DNA of 64,000 bases from Petasospora fabianii (Eukaryota; Ascomycota; Saccharomycetes; Phaffomycetales; Wickerhamomycetaceae). The notes beneath the pieces were generated by a model that saw nothing but the letters and a program-made list of their open reading frames with translations, was not told the DNA's origin and made no database searches. The stretch lies in assembly GCA_022641835.1 (NCBI GenBank), contig CP048717.1, positions 1,302,001 to 1,366,000 on the forward strand. Reading direction: 5' to 3'. Below are positions 46,975-53,369 of the stretch, in pieces (within the stretch, counting starts at the first letter, position 1; the number at the start of each line of letters is the position of its first letter). The position numbers and the translations under genes are program-made.

Positions 46975-48204
46975 ATGCCCCTCACAGAAGACCAGAAGGC
47001 CATCATCTCCGCCTCCGTACCAGTTCTCGAAGAGCATGGTGTCACTCTGACATCTAACTTCTACGCCTACATGTTGGAAAACCATCCAGAAGTGCGTCCT
47101 TTCTTCAACAAGGCCCATCAGATCACCAAGTCCCAGCCAAAGATTCTCGCCTTTGCCCTCGTTGCCTACGCTAAGAACATCAACGACTTGACTCCTCTCT
47201 TGGGATTCGTTCGCCAGATTGTTGAGAAGCACGTTGGTCTTCAAGTTCAGCCAGAGCATTATAACATTGTTGGTTCATGTCTCTTGCACACACTCAAGGA
47301 CATGCTCGGAGACGCTGCTACTCCGGAGTTCATGGAGGCTTGGAAAGTTGCATACTTTGACCTTGCCAACATTCTCATTGATCTCGAAAAGGCAAGATAT
47401 GAAGAAGTAATCACAACGGAGAAAGGCTGGGAAGGTTTCAAACCGGCCAAGGTTGTCAAGCTCGTCAAGGAGAACGACCTCGTGCAGAGTGTCTACTTCA
47501 AGACTGAAGATGGTGAGTTCGCTACACCATTCCCTGGTCAATACATCTGTATCCGTTTCAAGGTTGATGGTAATATTCAGAGCAGAGAATACTCTCTTTC
47601 AAATAATTTGAGTGACAAGTATGACTACTATAGAATCTCTGTCAAGAAGATACAGGGTGGTGCTGTCTCCAACTTCATCCACAATAAGTTGGCAGTTGGT
47701 GACACTGTTGAGATCTCTTCACCATACGGTAAGTTGTTAGAACCAGCTTTGAAGTCCATTAAGAATGGTGATGAGGACCACAAGAAGCCAGTTATGATGT
47801 TTGTTGCTGGAATCGGTGTCACTCCATCCTTGTCTATTGCTGAGTACTTTGCCAAGAGAGGTAACAAGGTCAGCATCTTCCTTTCGTTCTCCAACCTTGA
47901 AAGTACTGTGTTCCAAAAGGACTTCCAAGATCTTTCACTCAAGTATCCAAACGTCGTCCTCTATCAGTTCCTTTCTCGTCTTCCAACAACTGATGCTATC
48001 ACAAGCTCCACTAATTTCAAGATTTTCAATAGAAGACCTGTCATCACCGATTTGGATCTCGTCAACGAGAGTAATGCCAACGACTTCCAGTACTTCATGA
48101 TTGGTCCACTGTCTTATATGGAGGCAATGACGTCCTTCTTGTCACAGAAAGGTGTTGACGTTGCAAAGGTTAACTCTGAACAGTTTGGTCCTGTCCACGT
48201 CTGA
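46975..48204 (+). CDS. YHB1: Flavohemoglobin, nitric oxide dioxygenase (Yhb1)
   Basis: A 409-residue protein (yeast Yhb1 is 399). The globin domain (1-145) has Tyr30 at B10 and the proximal His86 in EKHVGLQVQPEHY. The FAD-binding part (about 155-265) has REYSLSNN, and the NAD-binding part (about 275-405) has FVAGIGVTPSLSIAEYF and ends EQFGPVHV. The enzyme turns NO and O2 into nitrate with NAD(P)H and protects against nitrosative stress. Codon use is strongly biased (AAG, GTC, ATC), suggesting high expression. It borders the 3.2-kb gene desert. Confidence 0.97.
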   Translation: MPLTEDQKAIISASVPVLEEHGVTLTSNFYAYMLENHPEVRPFFNKAHQITKSQPKILAFALVAYAKNINDLTPLLGFVRQIVEKHVGLQVQPEHYNIVGSCLLHTLKDMLGDAATPEFMEAWKVAYFDLANILIDLEKARYEEVITTEKGWEGFKPAKVVKLVKENDLVQSVYFKTEDGEFATPFPGQYICIRFKVDGNIQSREYSLSNNLSDKYDYYRISVKKIQGGAVSNFIHNKLAVGDTVEISSPYGKLLEPALKSIKNGDEDHKKPVMMFVAGIGVTPSLSIAEYFAKRGNKVSIFLSFSNLESTVFQKDFQDLSLKYPNVVLYQFLSRLPTTDAITSSTNFKIFNRRPVITDLDLVNESNANDFQYFMIGPLSYMEAMTSFLSQKGVDVAKVNSEQFGPVHV

Positions 48205-48506
48205 GAGGTTGACCGGCTTTACGTTATTTATTTTGAGCGGTGTATATATCCAACTTGTCCGTTTGAGTGCTTTTTCCTACATATATATACTTAATCCACG
48301 ATATAGAGATAACCAAGTATCCTTAGATCTAACATATTGCTTGGAGCACAGCCTCTATAAAGCTCAGAAAACCTAGGAAATAGGTAAAAGTGATACCGTT
48401 AGGTATTGCTCACCTGAGATGGATGTACATAGTTGTCTTAAAGCATAGCTTCGATGTTCCACTTCTTCAAAGTCTATACACTCATTTGAGCTTAAGATGG
48501 AATTGG

Positions 48507-48603
48507 TTATGCATACTTATGCACTCAAACGTCTAAATCGGCATAATTTAAACTTATGCATATTTATACGAAGATTGTGCATAGTCTTCGCGAAATGTGC
48601 ATA
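48507..48603. repeat. Cluster of six TTATGC/GCATA words
   Basis: TTATGCATA at 48507, TTATGCA at 48517, GCATAA at 48541, TTATGCATA at 48554, GTGCATA at 48577 and GTGCATA at 48597. The words occur on both strands with about 10-24-bp steps. The half-site GCATAA is the one that forms the paired dyads upstream of VMA4 and NDUFA2. Confidence 0.55.
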
Positions 48604-48932
48604 TATTATTGAGAAAAAGACCACATTTTAAACATCGTCATACGCACAGATACTAAGTGTTCCACTCCGGTCAAAAGCCGTATAATGGTGCCCTGGCTTC
48701 GAGTTTCCATTTGGTATAGCCCAGTAGCTACTATGCAAGCTGGTGGTTTAGGTTGATGGAGCCACATCCAGCTGATATGAGCTCCCCGTGCCAACAGGTG
48801 CTTCTGGTACGTATTACAATCATATACAACGACGAACGAAGGTTAGAGCCTTAAAGAGCCTATACCGGATAGAGAGTGAGCTCATGTACTCTACCAGTAG
48901 CTTGTATGCTTTGCAAATTGTACTTACATCGT

Positions 48933-49007
48933 GTATGATCGTCTGTAGTTTCTGACGTCTAGAGCATCGAATGTGGCAAGTTTGCAGTATCTATTACACG
49001 ATCATAC
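48933..49007. repeat. Perfect 10-bp inverted repeat with 55-bp spacer
   Basis: GTATGATCGT (48933-48942) is the exact complement of ACGATCATAC (48998-49007). A smaller GGTAT/ATACC hairpin follows at about 49014-49030. Confidence 0.7.
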
Positions 49008-49569
49008 TCGATGGTATCGCTACAATACCACGCTTACCTACATGAATTGTACTCAGGTGGCTCACTTCTATCATTCTACATGCTCTGCTTCCCAAGTTAG
49101 CCGCGCATGGCATGAATATATTCAAATCAGTGGTCTTGAGCTTCTGACCAGGTAACGCGTCCAGCTACAACAAAGCCTTAACTGAAGCTGTGTATCCATG
49201 CAAAGTCATTTTAAATACCTCAGTTCATGGCTTATCACTCCAACAACAGTAGTGAGACATTAATCACCCTTGTAAAGCCAGACTATGGACGATTATCAAA
49301 GATAGTTCACAGTATGGGCCCATGACGCGCATCCCTACACTACCTCACCTGGCTTTTTTGGCAATAACTCAACCAGCGCAGTAAATACAGCTACAAAAAG
49401 GGCTTTATACTGTTACTAGGTAGCTAGTACACACGTCTATGTGCTTCATTCACGCATAGAAGGCTAGGTTGTGTCTCCAGCGCCTTCTACAACATAGTGA
49501 GCCATAGCCCTTTACCTACGAAAAATCGGACATGCCCCCGCTCTTCCATGATTACCCAACATTTTTGAC

Positions 49570-50350
49570 CCCACTGGGACCATTAATATAGCAAGGAAGG
49601 GCCTCTTGCTTTAATGGTGGCCTCTACGTTGAAACTACAGGTTGTGTGCAAAGAGTTGGGCCCCGGTGAATTTGTCCGATGCCTCACTATGGTGAGGCAT
49701 CACCTCACTGCCTATGACGATTCATGGCCACCTGAGTATCCCCACCTGGGGGAAGAACAACACCACCGGGGTATCATCCATCACTCTGTCCACCCTGTCT
49801 ATGTTCAACGTTAGTACCTCTTCCCAGGGGCCGCGGATCTACTTTTGGGTCAGCGTAAGGCTTATCCCACTGCCAGGGACTATTCGGGATAGTCGTGTCC
49901 AGAGACCACCAATTCCTTCCTATTCCATCCTAGGTGGCACTCTGACGACCATCTCCGTAGTCTTTACCTGGGGGGAGAAGTGTCCGACATCCTGGGATGA
50001 CCCTCCAGGATTTCTCCACCTGTCTGCGAGGGACACCACCTAGGGTTTGCCGACTTCCCCCGTTCGGGTTGCCAGGCACAGGGGAATCCGGAGCCTACTA
50101 TTGAGGTGCACACGAGCCCCCATGTCACTGTCCCAAGAAGGAAGCTCACACCCCGATGACTGTCGTGGTAGGTCTAGTCCACCGTCATGTGCGAGGCCAT
50201 ACTGGCTTCCCCCTCGTTAGGTGGGGCCAGCGGGAGGTGTACGGAGTCCTTCAACTAAGAGGTATAACACCGACCTCCATGCAGACACTGACCCAGAAGA
50301 AGCACTGGCCCTTAGGGCACCCTAGACATGTATTATATACAAGCTGGGTG
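49570..50350. ncRNA. Candidate structured RNA core (strand unknown, family unknown)
   Basis: A GC-rich block without coding sense but with many perfect stems. GATGCCTCAC/GTGAGGCATC closes a TATG tetraloop (49678-49701). GACTAT/ATAGTC closes a 5-nt loop (49878-49894). A nested domain has CCTAGGTGG (49929-49937) with CCACCTAGG (50036-50044), inside it GTGTCC (49980-49985) with GGACAC (50031-50036, one shared base), and inside that ATCCTGG/CCAGGAT (49989-50011). ATGAC-GTGG pairs with CCAC-GTCAT (50156-50188). CGAGG/CCTCG encloses GCCA/TGGC (50192-50216). No Rfam family is recognised by eye; SRP RNA and RNase P/MRP RNA should be tested. Confidence 0.45.
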
Positions 50351-50534
50351 TGATATAAGGCAACGGACTCCTCCCTGCTCGCAGCTCTTCTTTGGCTGGG
50401 CATTCTTCAACTCCGACTTTCAAATAGTAACCAAATGTGGACGATTCCCCTGAGACCAATCCACCTCTCTGAGAAGCTGTCAACTGACAGCTCAAGTTAT
50501 ATTCTATTTAGGCAGTAGGGTTATAGGTGCTCAG

Positions 50535-51040
50535 TATCTTGTCAGAGTGCGGTAGTAATGAATGAAGGCAGTTAGCTCATCAGCCTCGTCAAACGAGGAC
50601 ACATGTGAAGACACATGGGTAAACATTACTTCCAGCAACTCTGAGTCAACACGTGAACATTCAACAGCACAGTGGTCCGGAGAACCCTGTAAGGGATCAT
50701 AGCTTCAGTGCTTTGCCAAGACAAGATACTGGAATGGAGGCAGCTAGCTCACTTGCCTTGACTTATAGATAGTCAAAAGACGTATCATGCAAGGACACAC
50801 ATGTATACATGTGTTAAACCTGTTACTTATCAGACGCATCACCGGAGGACCATAGTGTCCATTGACCCACACCTTCAGAAAGATGGAGAGGCCGAAGTCT
50901 TGCCAGAGTGTGAGAGTGGTGAATGAAGAGCACTTAAGCTCTTCTCCTCGACCTATAGATAGGAGTACCGCAACACTCCTAAAATGCGAGTTCACACGTA
51001 TGAAATACGTGGTAAGACACCACTCTCAACCCCAACTGAC
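50535..51040. repeat. Three diverged tandem units with the same hairpin plan
   Basis: Units align at CTTG (50538, 50712, 50899), with periods of 174 and 187 bp. Each has a 5' block (TCTTGYCAGAGTG in units 1 and 3), then (R)ATGRAGG, hairpin a (loop with TAGCTCA in units 1 and 2), hairpin b, hairpin c and a closing 3' strand. Outer stems: unit 1 AGTAATG/CATTACT plus TCAGAGT/ACTCTGA; unit 3 TGAGAGTGGTG/CACCACTCTCA; unit 2 weak. Hairpin b: CCTCGT/ACGAGG, TTGACT/AGTCAA, CTCCT/AGGAG. Hairpin c: CATGTG/CACATG, ACACATG/CATGTGT, CACGTAT/ATACGTG. Primary sequence changes while pairing is kept. A more diverged fourth unit may lie at 50422-50509. Confidence 0.7.
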
Positions 51041-51268
51041 CCACCTTGAGGCATGGCAAGTGCCCCATTCAGCTCCTCATATCTCCATGGTATCGAATAA
51101 TACGGATGCTCCAAAGCTTGTGATTTATAAAGCATTTGTGTAAGTCGAAAGCCTCAAAGTTTACACAAAAGCCGAACTCCGTATCGTTGCCCCGCAAAAT
51201 ATGCGCCTGTACGCGCGCGCGTTGGAAATGCCCCTGATAACTCGGTTAGCGCACTACAGCGGACTAAA

Positions 51269-51306
51269 ATAAAATAAAAAATAAAAAAAAAATAAAAAAA
51301 ATAAAA
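51269..51306 (+). repeat. A-rich tract (AAAAT repeats)
   Basis: A 38-bp run of A with single T interruptions, about 115 bp upstream of the YND1 ATG; a likely nucleosome-excluding poly(dA:dT) promoter element. Confidence 0.75.
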
Positions 51307-51422
51307 CATCCGTACACCTCATTTTAATCCTGATCGTGGGGAATTGGACGAATCATCCGACGCGTGTTAATCTTTTATCTCTCTTTGTTAGCCCTGTGAC
51401 TGTATTTTGACACAAAGAAGCA

Positions 51423-53369
51423 ATGGGGAAGAAGACAGGACCGTCTGTGGATGAATTAGGAAACCCCTACGACTACATAGTCGTCATTGATGCGGGATCA
51501 AAGGGATCCAGAGCCCATCTCTACCGTGCGAAGCAATACACCGGGGAATCGCAATCTCTGTCATTTTCAGCGTCTGGGGATGACAGTGATAGTGACGATG
51601 AGGATTATGATGAGAAGAAGGGCTCCACATGGGCTGATATCGATTCAATTGATGATTCAACGCCCAGGGATTACCCCTTGATTGAACTTGTAAGAAGAAA
51701 GAAGGTAAAGCCCGGGATTGCCGAGTTTGCCAACAATCCAAAGAAGCTTGGGTCGAAGTACGTGGGGAAGATGCTACATGATATGGAGAAATACATCCCA
51801 AAGGATCAAATCACGCGAACACCGGTGTTCCTCCATGCCACTGGTGGAATGAGGTTGTTGAAACCAGAAGACCAGGAGAAGATTCTCTCGGAAATCTGCA
51901 CTTATATCCAGAAGCACAGTGATTTCTATCTTCCAGATTGTCAGTCCCACGTGAACATTATATCTGGGGAAGTTGAAGGGTTGTACTCTTGGATTGGCCT
52001 CAACTACAAATATGGCATGTTTGACACAACGGTAGAGGACAAGTCAACGTATGGTGCTCTTGATATGGGTGGTGTCTCCTCACAGATGGCTTTCGAACCT
52101 TCAAATGTCAAGGATGAGCACGTTGATTACTTGTTCAAAGTTGATCTTAACTATGCTGATCCATCGGATGAATCACGTTTCAACTACAAGGTCTTCTCCG
52201 AGTCTTTCCTCGGTGGTATGAGCCGAGCACACACCAAGTATGAGGAATGGCTTATACAAAACAATCAGTTAGTGGACCCATGTTTGCCCGATGGATACAT
52301 CAAGACGGTCACATCGAAGAATGGTGAAAAAGTTGATATTCAAGGATCTTCAGACTTTACTGAGTGCTTAAAATCGTTATACAGCGTCCTCAATGAAGTT
52401 TCCATTGACAAGTTTTGTGATCCGGATGCCGAGATGCAGACCACTTCATGTCTCCTCTCTGACTCACTGCCAAAGATGGAATTCAACGTGAAGAAATTCG
52501 TCGGTATCAACGAGTTCTATTCCAATCTTAAAGAGTTTCTCAACTACAAAGACTGTTATGATCGTGCCCAAAAGTTTTGCTCATACTCATACACGGAGAT
52601 CCTTTCATCAAAGGAGATTTCTGAAGACAATGAACCTGAAAAGACTTCAGAGATCTGTTTCAAATCAGCATGGATCATCAATGTCCTACACCAGGGTGTT
52701 GGATTTCCACGATATGGTATCGATGAGGAGGATGACACCACTTCGAAGCAAGATCAAACCGCATCAGGAACGAGCACAACTCCTGATTTCGCCGTGTTAG
52801 AGGGATTCTCATGGACTTTGGGTCGTGCCGTGCTGTACAACTTCTTTGAGACTGCGTCTAGGCTGCATAATGAGACAGTGCCGAGAATCGGGTACTATGA
52901 ACCTTCTAGTCAGGTGTTTGTCCCTGGTGGTGAAGCTATTGGGATCTCACCAAGACCTTTGTATGTTCAAGATTATTACGGTGATGAGGTTCCATTCACT
53001 GAGAACGACGATGATGATGATACCCACGATGATGGTAATAACGATGATTGGGATGACGTGGAGGATCACAGATTGTGGGGGTCGTTATCGTTCTTGATTA
53101 TCTTGTTCATTGTTGCGTACCTGCTGATGGGGAAGACCAAGAGACAGAATATCGTTGATGCTGTTAAGAGGATGGTGGGCAATAGATTCAAAGGAGGTCT
53201 TTATTCCCCTGTGGAGATTGATAATGAAGACTTGGAGCTTGGTCTCCAGGAGAACGAATTGCTAGATGAGTCGGTGGGTGAGCCAATTCATCAGCAAGAT
53301 GAGGACGAGGAAGAGGGCGAACCTCAACGTCCTGCTACTACTAGGGAGGACAGTTTTGAGATTCAATGA
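51423..53369 (+). CDS. YND1: Golgi apyrase Ynd1 (GDA1/CD39 nucleotidase)
   Basis: A 648-residue protein (yeast Ynd1 is 630). The apyrase conserved regions are present in order: VVIDAGSKGSR (ACR1), FLHATGGMR (ACR2), GEVEGLYSWIGLNY (ACR3), ALDMGGVSSQMAF (ACR4) and FSWTLGRAVLY (ACR5). One membrane span at about 550-570 (LWGSLSFLIILFIVAYLLMG) leaves the catalytic part in the lumen and about 75 residues in the cytosol. That C-terminal anchor separates Ynd1 from Gda1, whose anchor is N-terminal. An acidic insert (GDDSDSDDEDYDEKK) after ACR1 is unusual. The enzyme hydrolyses GDP and UDP to supply the Golgi sugar-nucleotide antiporters. Confidence 0.92.
   Translation: MGKKTGPSVDELGNPYDYIVVIDAGSKGSRAHLYRAKQYTGESQSLSFSASGDDSDSDDEDYDEKKGSTWADIDSIDDSTPRDYPLIELVRRKKVKPGIAEFANNPKKLGSKYVGKMLHDMEKYIPKDQITRTPVFLHATGGMRLLKPEDQEKILSEICTYIQKHSDFYLPDCQSHVNIISGEVEGLYSWIGLNYKYGMFDTTVEDKSTYGALDMGGVSSQMAFEPSNVKDEHVDYLFKVDLNYADPSDESRFNYKVFSESFLGGMSRAHTKYEEWLIQNNQLVDPCLPDGYIKTVTSKNGEKVDIQGSSDFTECLKSLYSVLNEVSIDKFCDPDAEMQTTSCLLSDSLPKMEFNVKKFVGINEFYSNLKEFLNYKDCYDRAQKFCSYSYTEILSSKEISEDNEPEKTSEICFKSAWIINVLHQGVGFPRYGIDEEDDTTSKQDQTASGTSTTPDFAVLEGFSWTLGRAVLYNFFETASRLHNETVPRIGYYEPSSQVFVPGGEAIGISPRPLYVQDYYGDEVPFTENDDDDDTHDDGNNDDWDDVEDHRLWGSLSFLIILFIVAYLLMGKTKRQNIVDAVKRMVGNRFKGGLYSPVEIDNEDLELGLQENELLDESVGEPIHQQDEDEEEGEPQRPATTREDSFEIQ

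Follow-up and report, generated by a model that had tools for sequence, protein, structure and literature searches.

Tandem cloverleaf modules in a dispersed family of noncoding elements of Petasospora fabianii

Three tandem units at positions 50535 to 51040 of a 64,000-nucleotide stretch of P. fabianii DNA (the window; assembly GCA_022641835.1, contig CP048717.1, positions 1,302,001 to 1,366,000) were described in an earlier note, made from the letters alone, as cloverleafs whose stems persist while their bases change, with no yeast RNA of three tandem cloverleafs known to its author. To our knowledge, few reports of structured RNAs in budding yeasts go beyond the classic housekeeping families. 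The locus raises the question of whether these stems are under selection, on which strand they would fold and to what kind of element they belong.

The element and its copies

The cloverleaf array proved to be real, but the three-unit locus is one member of a family of 14 loci. When window segment 50500-51100 was searched at the DNA level against its own assembly (12.34 Mb, 16 contigs), 24 matches were obtained, 19 of them long, including the window copy. Flank retrieval and searches with other element parts placed the window units (50535-51040) at one end of a noncoding element of ~2.5 kb (range ~2.5-3.5 kb). The 14 loci are spread over 7 of the 16 contigs, namely C1 (2), C2 (1), C3 (2), C4 (4), C5 (2), C8 (2) and C9 (1). 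A second array was found in 5 loci, and 19 three-unit arrays were aligned over the 14 loci, 18 of them complete and one (L016_2, not in alignment A1) without unit 3. Copies carried from 3 to ~8 units, with model counts of up to 7 per locus and ~8 including a short partial match. The 19-mer GAGCTAACTGCCTYCATTC (up to 3 mismatches, whole genome) occurred 46 times, 44 of them within the 14 loci. With regard to other organisms, one exact pattern searched against IMG/VR and one against GTDB contigs gave 0 matches each, and none of the literature matches listed described the element. The window copy is composed of the following parts:

48503-48650, no strand: left end, a putative promoter-like DNA-binding region (TGCA-type word cluster; alignment of 13 loci)
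48633-49014, no strand: four ATCATAC-type sites in both orientations, common to both left-half types (by eye from the alignment and the stem listing; inverted repeat I1)
48650-49473, no strand: left half, of type A in the window copy (type edge ~49474)
49474-50530, no strand: core, with 89-98% identity to 12 other loci and without coding signal
50545-50640, minus strand: unit 1 module; outer stem 50554-50560/50624-50630, P2 50602-50607/50612-50617, P3 50584-50588/50594-50598 (alignment A3, 19 copies; pair counts; simulations)
50722-50832, minus strand: unit 2 module; outer stem 50728-50732/50819-50823, P2 50797-50803/50808-50814, P3 50756-50760/50790-50794, P4 50739-50743/50753-50757 (alignment A2, 19 copies; pair counts; simulations without P4)
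50906-51034, minus strand: unit 3 module; outer stem 50912-50921/51018-51027, P2 50995-51001/51005-51011, inner P3 50960-50966/50975-50981, P4 50925-50931/50938-50944 (alignment A1, 18 copies; pair counts; covariance model; simulations)
51160-51200, no strand: weak counterpart (by eye) of the right-end module of longer copies, TGCCACARAAAC...GTTRCCCYGG

At the left end, 37 of the 53 spacings between TGCA-type words over the 14 loci were 10, 20 or 21 bp. The 15-mer TTCGCGAAATGTGCA (48587-48601), a TTCGCGAAANGTGCA box, also lies in this region; with up to 1 mismatch allowed, the genome contains it 13 times, and 11 of these sites fall at 10 of the 14 loci (control, 1). Judged by these features, the left end looks like a DNA-binding regulatory region. 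The whole left half (48503-49473) exists as type A in 7 loci and type B in 6 loci, which are 33-59% alike over 60-column windows, with their motif blocks preserved between the types. Locus L021 was excluded from the left-end alignment, the stem listing, the full-alignment site counts and the RNAalifold scan of core and left half. A 15-16-nt inverted repeat at 48926-49014 is preserved in type A copies. Of the left-half windows, this one alone combined a low z on the plus strand in RNAalifold (-7.3) with an energy clearly below zero (-6.3); the repeat may represent paired protein sites.

The core of the C2 copy is shorter and diverged. None of the 32 informative sites of the core split type A from type B, compared to 52 of 158 for the left half. 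Of 496 site pairs, 157 were incompatible with one tree. Both results indicate that copies exchange sequence. The mosaic core variants show recombination or gene conversion among copies, and such exchange would hold the core nearly identical. The L012 core carries an AT-rich insertion of ~50 bp (window ~49784) that was seen in this one copy.

To the right of the array, a conserved stretch was common to the 7 longer copies (7 of the 14 loci aligned), 5 of which contain the module TGCCACAGAAAC...CCC; a relaxed pattern of this module matched 6 of the 14 loci, and the window copy was not among them. At the right ends of L009, L013, L014, L015 and L018, TGCCACAGAAAC is followed by a short variable stretch, which forms an obvious hairpin (by eye) in L013, and then by TTACCC/GTTGCCC words that resemble a Reb1 site.

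Preservation of the stems

Unit starts are spaced ~180 bp apart, modules measure roughly 95-130 nt, and direct repeats link units 1 and 3 (31 nt at 81%) and units 2 and 3 (17 nt at 88%). Each module follows the same plan of an outer stem with arms P2 and P3, accompanied by a P4 that stands out clearly in unit 3 but is short in the other two units; the middle arm of unit 3 bears an additional inner hairpin. In units 1 and 2, the segment GAGCUAACUGCCUYCAUUC is near-invariant. When the window sequence was compared to dinucleotide shuffles, excess structure was strong for unit 3 (z -6.2 plus, -5.9 minus) and moderate for unit 1 (-3.5 plus, -3.0 minus), and was also obtained for the whole array (-3.0 plus, -4.2 minus), with none in unit 2 (-0.6 plus, -1.3 minus). 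Chance is therefore unlikely for units 1 and 3 from the window sequence alone, and for unit 2 only through the copies elsewhere.

All the stem words quoted in the earlier note are present in the window, for hairpin c at 50602/50612, 50797/50808 and 50995/51005, for hairpin b at 50584/50593, 50758/50771 and 50944/50961, and for the outer stems at 50554/50624 and 50915/51018. Among the copies, hairpin c was complete in 16 of 19 (unit 1), 14 of 19 (unit 2) and 16 of 18 (unit 3), as had been proposed, whereas hairpin b needed redrawing. The unit 2 stem TTGACT/AGTCAA is not conserved, being fully Watson-Crick in 2 of 19 copies, and is replaced by CCTTG/CAAGG (18/19). For unit 1 the 6-bp form held in a single copy of 19, but its 5-bp part CCTCG/CGAGG in 17. 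For unit 3, CTCCT/AGGAG is Watson-Crick in 3 of 18 copies only, and possible in 17 of 18 if minus-strand G-U pairs are counted; the alternative TAGGAGT/ACTCCTA is Watson-Crick in 14 of 18 (17 with G-U) and bears compensatory changes. In units 1 and 2, hairpin a is short and has a few bases in common with hairpin b, as the note had seen; in our drawing P4 and P3 of unit 2 overlap by 2 bases.

The AGGAG of unit 3 (window 50944-50981) can pair upstream or downstream, both being possible in 17 of 18 copies with minus-strand G-U. Because CTCCT/AGGAG and TAGGAGT/ACTCCTA compete for the same bases, unit 3 may switch from one fold to the other.

In the 7-bp form first drawn, the outer stem of unit 1 was complete in 3 of 18 copies and that of unit 3 in 2 of 18, rising to 7 and 10 of 18 with minus-strand G-U, so the perfect stems of the window copy are better than the family norm. 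Counted by single aligned pairs (cells), 90.2% of outer-stem cells were paired in unit 1 and 94.4% in the 10-bp stem of unit 3. The outer stem of unit 2 had been called weak because the window copy has one mismatch in it; the family has a conserved 5-bp stem there (ACTGG/CCAGT on the minus strand) with 97.9% of cells paired.

The stems that were tested are words of the window copy, in which all pairs but one are Watson-Crick. In unit 3 (18 copies, minus strand), 97.5% of 630 cells pair and 21 cells are changed on both sides; examples of compensation are CG:10/UA:8, AU:10/GC:8 and, through a GU intermediate, GC:13/AU:3. None of 500 shuffles reached its paired fraction, both-side changes or covariation score (0.183, compared to a maximum of 0.088 for slid structures), and two of the five shuffle measures were unexceptional (37/500 and 365/500). 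Units 2 and 1 (19 copies each) had 98.5 and 95.3% of cells paired with little variation, and their covariation scores were reached by 191 and 174 of 500 shuffles, respectively.

Kinship of the copies was respected in a tree-based null in which stem substitutions were redistributed along the trees in 300 simulations. The observed pairing was reached by 0 of 300 simulations in each of the three units, the simulated means being 91.9% for unit 3, 94.0% for unit 2 and 91.7% for unit 1, whereas both-side changes in units 2 and 1 were reached by 178 and 61 of the 300 simulations. In a pairwise covariation test over the whole array with a tree null, only four linked columns in hairpin c of unit 3 were flagged at E ~0.03, a level at which the largest null value exceeds them and cross pairs score equally. 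These four columns form two haplotypes that require 7 or more changes along the tree, and the changes may reflect gene conversion.

A covariance model built from unit 3 alone detected 61 units (E 3e-40 to 0.008), comprising 18 of unit 3, 19 of unit 2, 19 of unit 1 and 5 others, and recovered units 1 and 2 at 14 of 14 loci; relative to the element, every unit lay on the minus strand. When built from sequence only, a model of the same alignment detected 43 units at E up to 10 (18 of unit 3, 11 of unit 2 and 14 of unit 1), and scored unit 2 at 16-25 bits compared to 26-47 bits with the structure model; these bit scores are only roughly comparable because weighting differs between the models. In the joint alignment of the 61 units (A4), 24 of 35 pairs change on both sides across few unit classes, and scores from A4 lean toward structure since it was fitted to structure. 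Collectively, covariation is clear in unit 3 only, as far as these alignments go, and pair counts and tree simulations show the stems of all three unit classes, outer stem and hairpins alike, to be preserved while bases change, as originally claimed. On this evidence, the cloverleaf looks to be under selection across the 19 array copies. A single genome sufficed to assess the fold, since the family members, with their several unit classes, can be aligned to one another.

Strand, coding potential and known RNAs

The types of pairs allowed us to compare both strands. Read on the minus strand, paired cells included 104 G-U versus 7 A-C (25 versus 7 when counted by pairs), and therefore the minus strand is the likelier RNA strand. 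Hairpin a of unit 3 was complete in 5 of 18 copies on the plus strand and in 16 of 18 on the minus strand, and the outer stem of unit 2 in 7 and 17 of 19 copies, respectively. RNAalifold z values against column shuffles were -7.9 minus and -4.5 plus for unit 3, -3.1 minus and -3.5 plus for unit 2, and -0.5 minus and -3.1 plus for unit 1. The strand evidence is thus mixed in folding energies and clear in pair types. Plus-strand cloverleafs are disfavoured, as several stems would need A-C pairs, yet RNAalifold prefers the plus strand for unit 1. Mutation polarity on the minus strand, counted crudely from major to minor letter, was 22:38 in unpaired positions, 43:45 in the core and 15:15 in the spacer between units 1 and 2, with an excess of wobble-type mutations (24:11) in the spacer between units 2 and 3; stems did not differ from unpaired positions (Fisher p 0.16), and mutation polarity is no general explanation of the G-U excess.

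Among mechanically called ORFs of at least 130 aa, 8 of 12 left neighbours end toward the element (two loci had none in range), as expected with a promoter there. Such a promoter-like region at the left end would drive the plus strand, against a simple minus-strand transcription, and the right end, where a minus-strand promoter is expected, is variable. Convergent transcription would reconcile a left promoter with a minus-strand RNA.

A coding core was rejected, since indels break the frame between copies and no domain was found. The longest stop-to-stop frame wholly inside the element has 115 aa, and a Pfam scan of 10 frames gave 5 matches, all under the curated cut-offs. A 143-aa frame present in some copies had 2 database matches, both without domain, and a core frame (window 49696-50043) was 100% identical, over 38% of the length, to the hypothetical protein BON22_1761 of Cyberlindnera fabianii (the name under which P. 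fabianii, of the Phaffomycetales, was listed before at NCBI), which is probably a spurious gene prediction.

With regard to known RNAs, Rfam 15 at gathering thresholds gave 0 matches in the window. In permissive searches, segment 48200-51430 gave 3 chance-level matches (the best, TarB, with 21.5 bits versus 80 required, E 0.69), and segment 2000-7200 of L014 gave none with E up to 2. ARAGORN, run with its bacterial-code setting, called 0 tRNA genes at the 14 loci. In keeping with the earlier note, the fold data point to a structured RNA outside every family of the RNA library searched. The modules resemble tRNA and tRNA-like cloverleafs in having an outer stem and several arms, and differ from them in their longer arms and in showing no recognisable T-loop (by eye). 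A giant structured RNA over the whole element was unsupported, with RNAalifold z values of +1.8 to -3.0 and no convincing conserved structure in the core; some z values in the left half were larger, mostly at energies near zero.

What the array may do

Regulatory RNAs with tandem modules include roX in flies, the Xist A-repeat in mammals and CsrB in bacteria. Like these RNAs, each of which repeats one structured protein-binding module along a long transcript, the element is predicted to present such a module repeatedly; unlike them, with their single or few loci and known partners, it has 14 dispersed copies and multi-arm modules of ~95-130 nt. Their sequence relation to the element was checked through Rfam, as far as these families are included there. 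We tentatively favour, from the folds and the family structure, a family of long RNAs, dispersed in the genome and built from tandem structured modules, that would serve as a multivalent protein-binding scaffold or sponge. On this view, the window would carry a noncoding RNA element dispersed in 14 copies; a long minus-strand RNA would be made from its array side as a row of modules, each a copy of one putative protein-binding site; GAGCUAACUGCCUYCAUUC is the predicted likeliest protein contact. In a culturable yeast with 14 copies, the role of repeated RNA modules is directly testable.

Several features would suit a non-autonomous mobile element, spread by retrotransposition or another route with proteins made elsewhere, whose modules would be RNA signals recognised by such a protein, although we regard this as somewhat unlikely. 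It would account for 14 copies whose flanking ORFs are mostly dissimilar, for the left end, which by eye breaks off abruptly when closely related type A copies are compared, and for the lack of an evident protein gene inside, and insertion from the 3' end of a minus-strand RNA would fit constant left and variable right ends. A precedent is Ty5.L of the related Wickerhamomyces anomalus, which belongs to the same yeast order and is described as non-autonomous and noncoding, with 2.4 kb between its LTRs (PMC12711049). Ty5.L is located at centromeres and carries a tRNA-iMet primer site besides its two LTRs, whereas the window copy lacks long direct terminal repeats (only short internal direct repeats of up to 31 nt in 48200-51430) and the element is absent from two presumed centromere regions examined. 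The preservation of left-half motif blocks between types that are otherwise 33-59% alike fits long-term function better than dead insertions. Moreover, L013 and L018 (C4, 160 and 214 kb) have a common neighbour gene for a similar 175-aa protein, and because of it this pair is probably a segmental duplication.

That each cloverleaf is cut from a precursor as a separate small RNA of ~95-130 nt, the array being a small-RNA cluster, would be compatible with the mean column identity of the modules (89-92%, versus ~70-84% in spacer windows) and with the variable number of units; no known small-RNA signature was recognised in the ARAGORN and Rfam searches, and we consider this improbable. Lower still do we place the inverted repeats acting as DNA, either as symmetric protein sites or as hairpins that one strand forms when single-stranded. 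Hairpin c is nearly palindromic (CACATG/CACGTA type), single-stranded DNA would also tolerate G-T wobble and the other end of the element is a phased cluster of DNA words, but double-stranded cruciforms would show no strand preference, contrary to the G-U excess over A-C, and long-range outer stems closing a multibranch loop are unexpected for protein sites. Between these last two in probability, and likewise doubtful, stands the possibility that the 14 loci are chromosome landmarks, each making its modular cloverleaf RNA in place and organising chromosomes, for example around centromeres or in meiotic pairing. In seven related species, seven chromosomes each are reported, and the 14 loci are double that number; four of the copies, on C4 and C5, break a simple two-per-chromosome rule.

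Hi-C maps of Phaffomycetales place the centromeres of several species between RER1 and SSL1 and near URM1 (PMC12711049). In the present assembly, Rer1 is encoded at 357 kb of C9 and Urm1 at 170 kb of C8, each gene adjoined by a stretch of ~10 kb without any ORF of more than 150 aa, and we presume these stretches to be centromeres. Dynamin, trehalase and polo kinase genes are further candidate centromere neighbours. Yeast centromere repeats such as the Ty5 clusters of C. sargentensis and the 21-bp arrays of W. anomalus (PMC12711049) are intergenic, homogenised and spread over several chromosomes, as is the element, which has phased short words at one end. Unlike them, element copies, with up to four per contig, share nothing detectable with the two presumed centromeres. 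A centromere sequence was rejected, as the two presumed centromeres (2 of the 7 sites expected from relatives) gave no match to the 14 loci at E 1e-4; the nearest copies lie ~45-115 kb away.

In the copies on C8 at 54 kb (plus), C8 at 214 kb (minus) and C9 at 255 kb (plus), the array side faces the presumed centromere. Four copy pairs are convergent (C1, C3, C4 and C8), and the pairs on C4 (160 and 214 kb) and C5 (930 and 942 kb) are not; the orientation of copies toward centromeres is a lead, not a result. The two presumed centromeres (C9 346.7-356.8 kb and C8 160.8-170 kb; L025-L028) have many repeat blocks in common, for instance 352 bp at 90% and 373 bp at 84% identity, and these repeats may be LTR-like, as in C. 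sargentensis.
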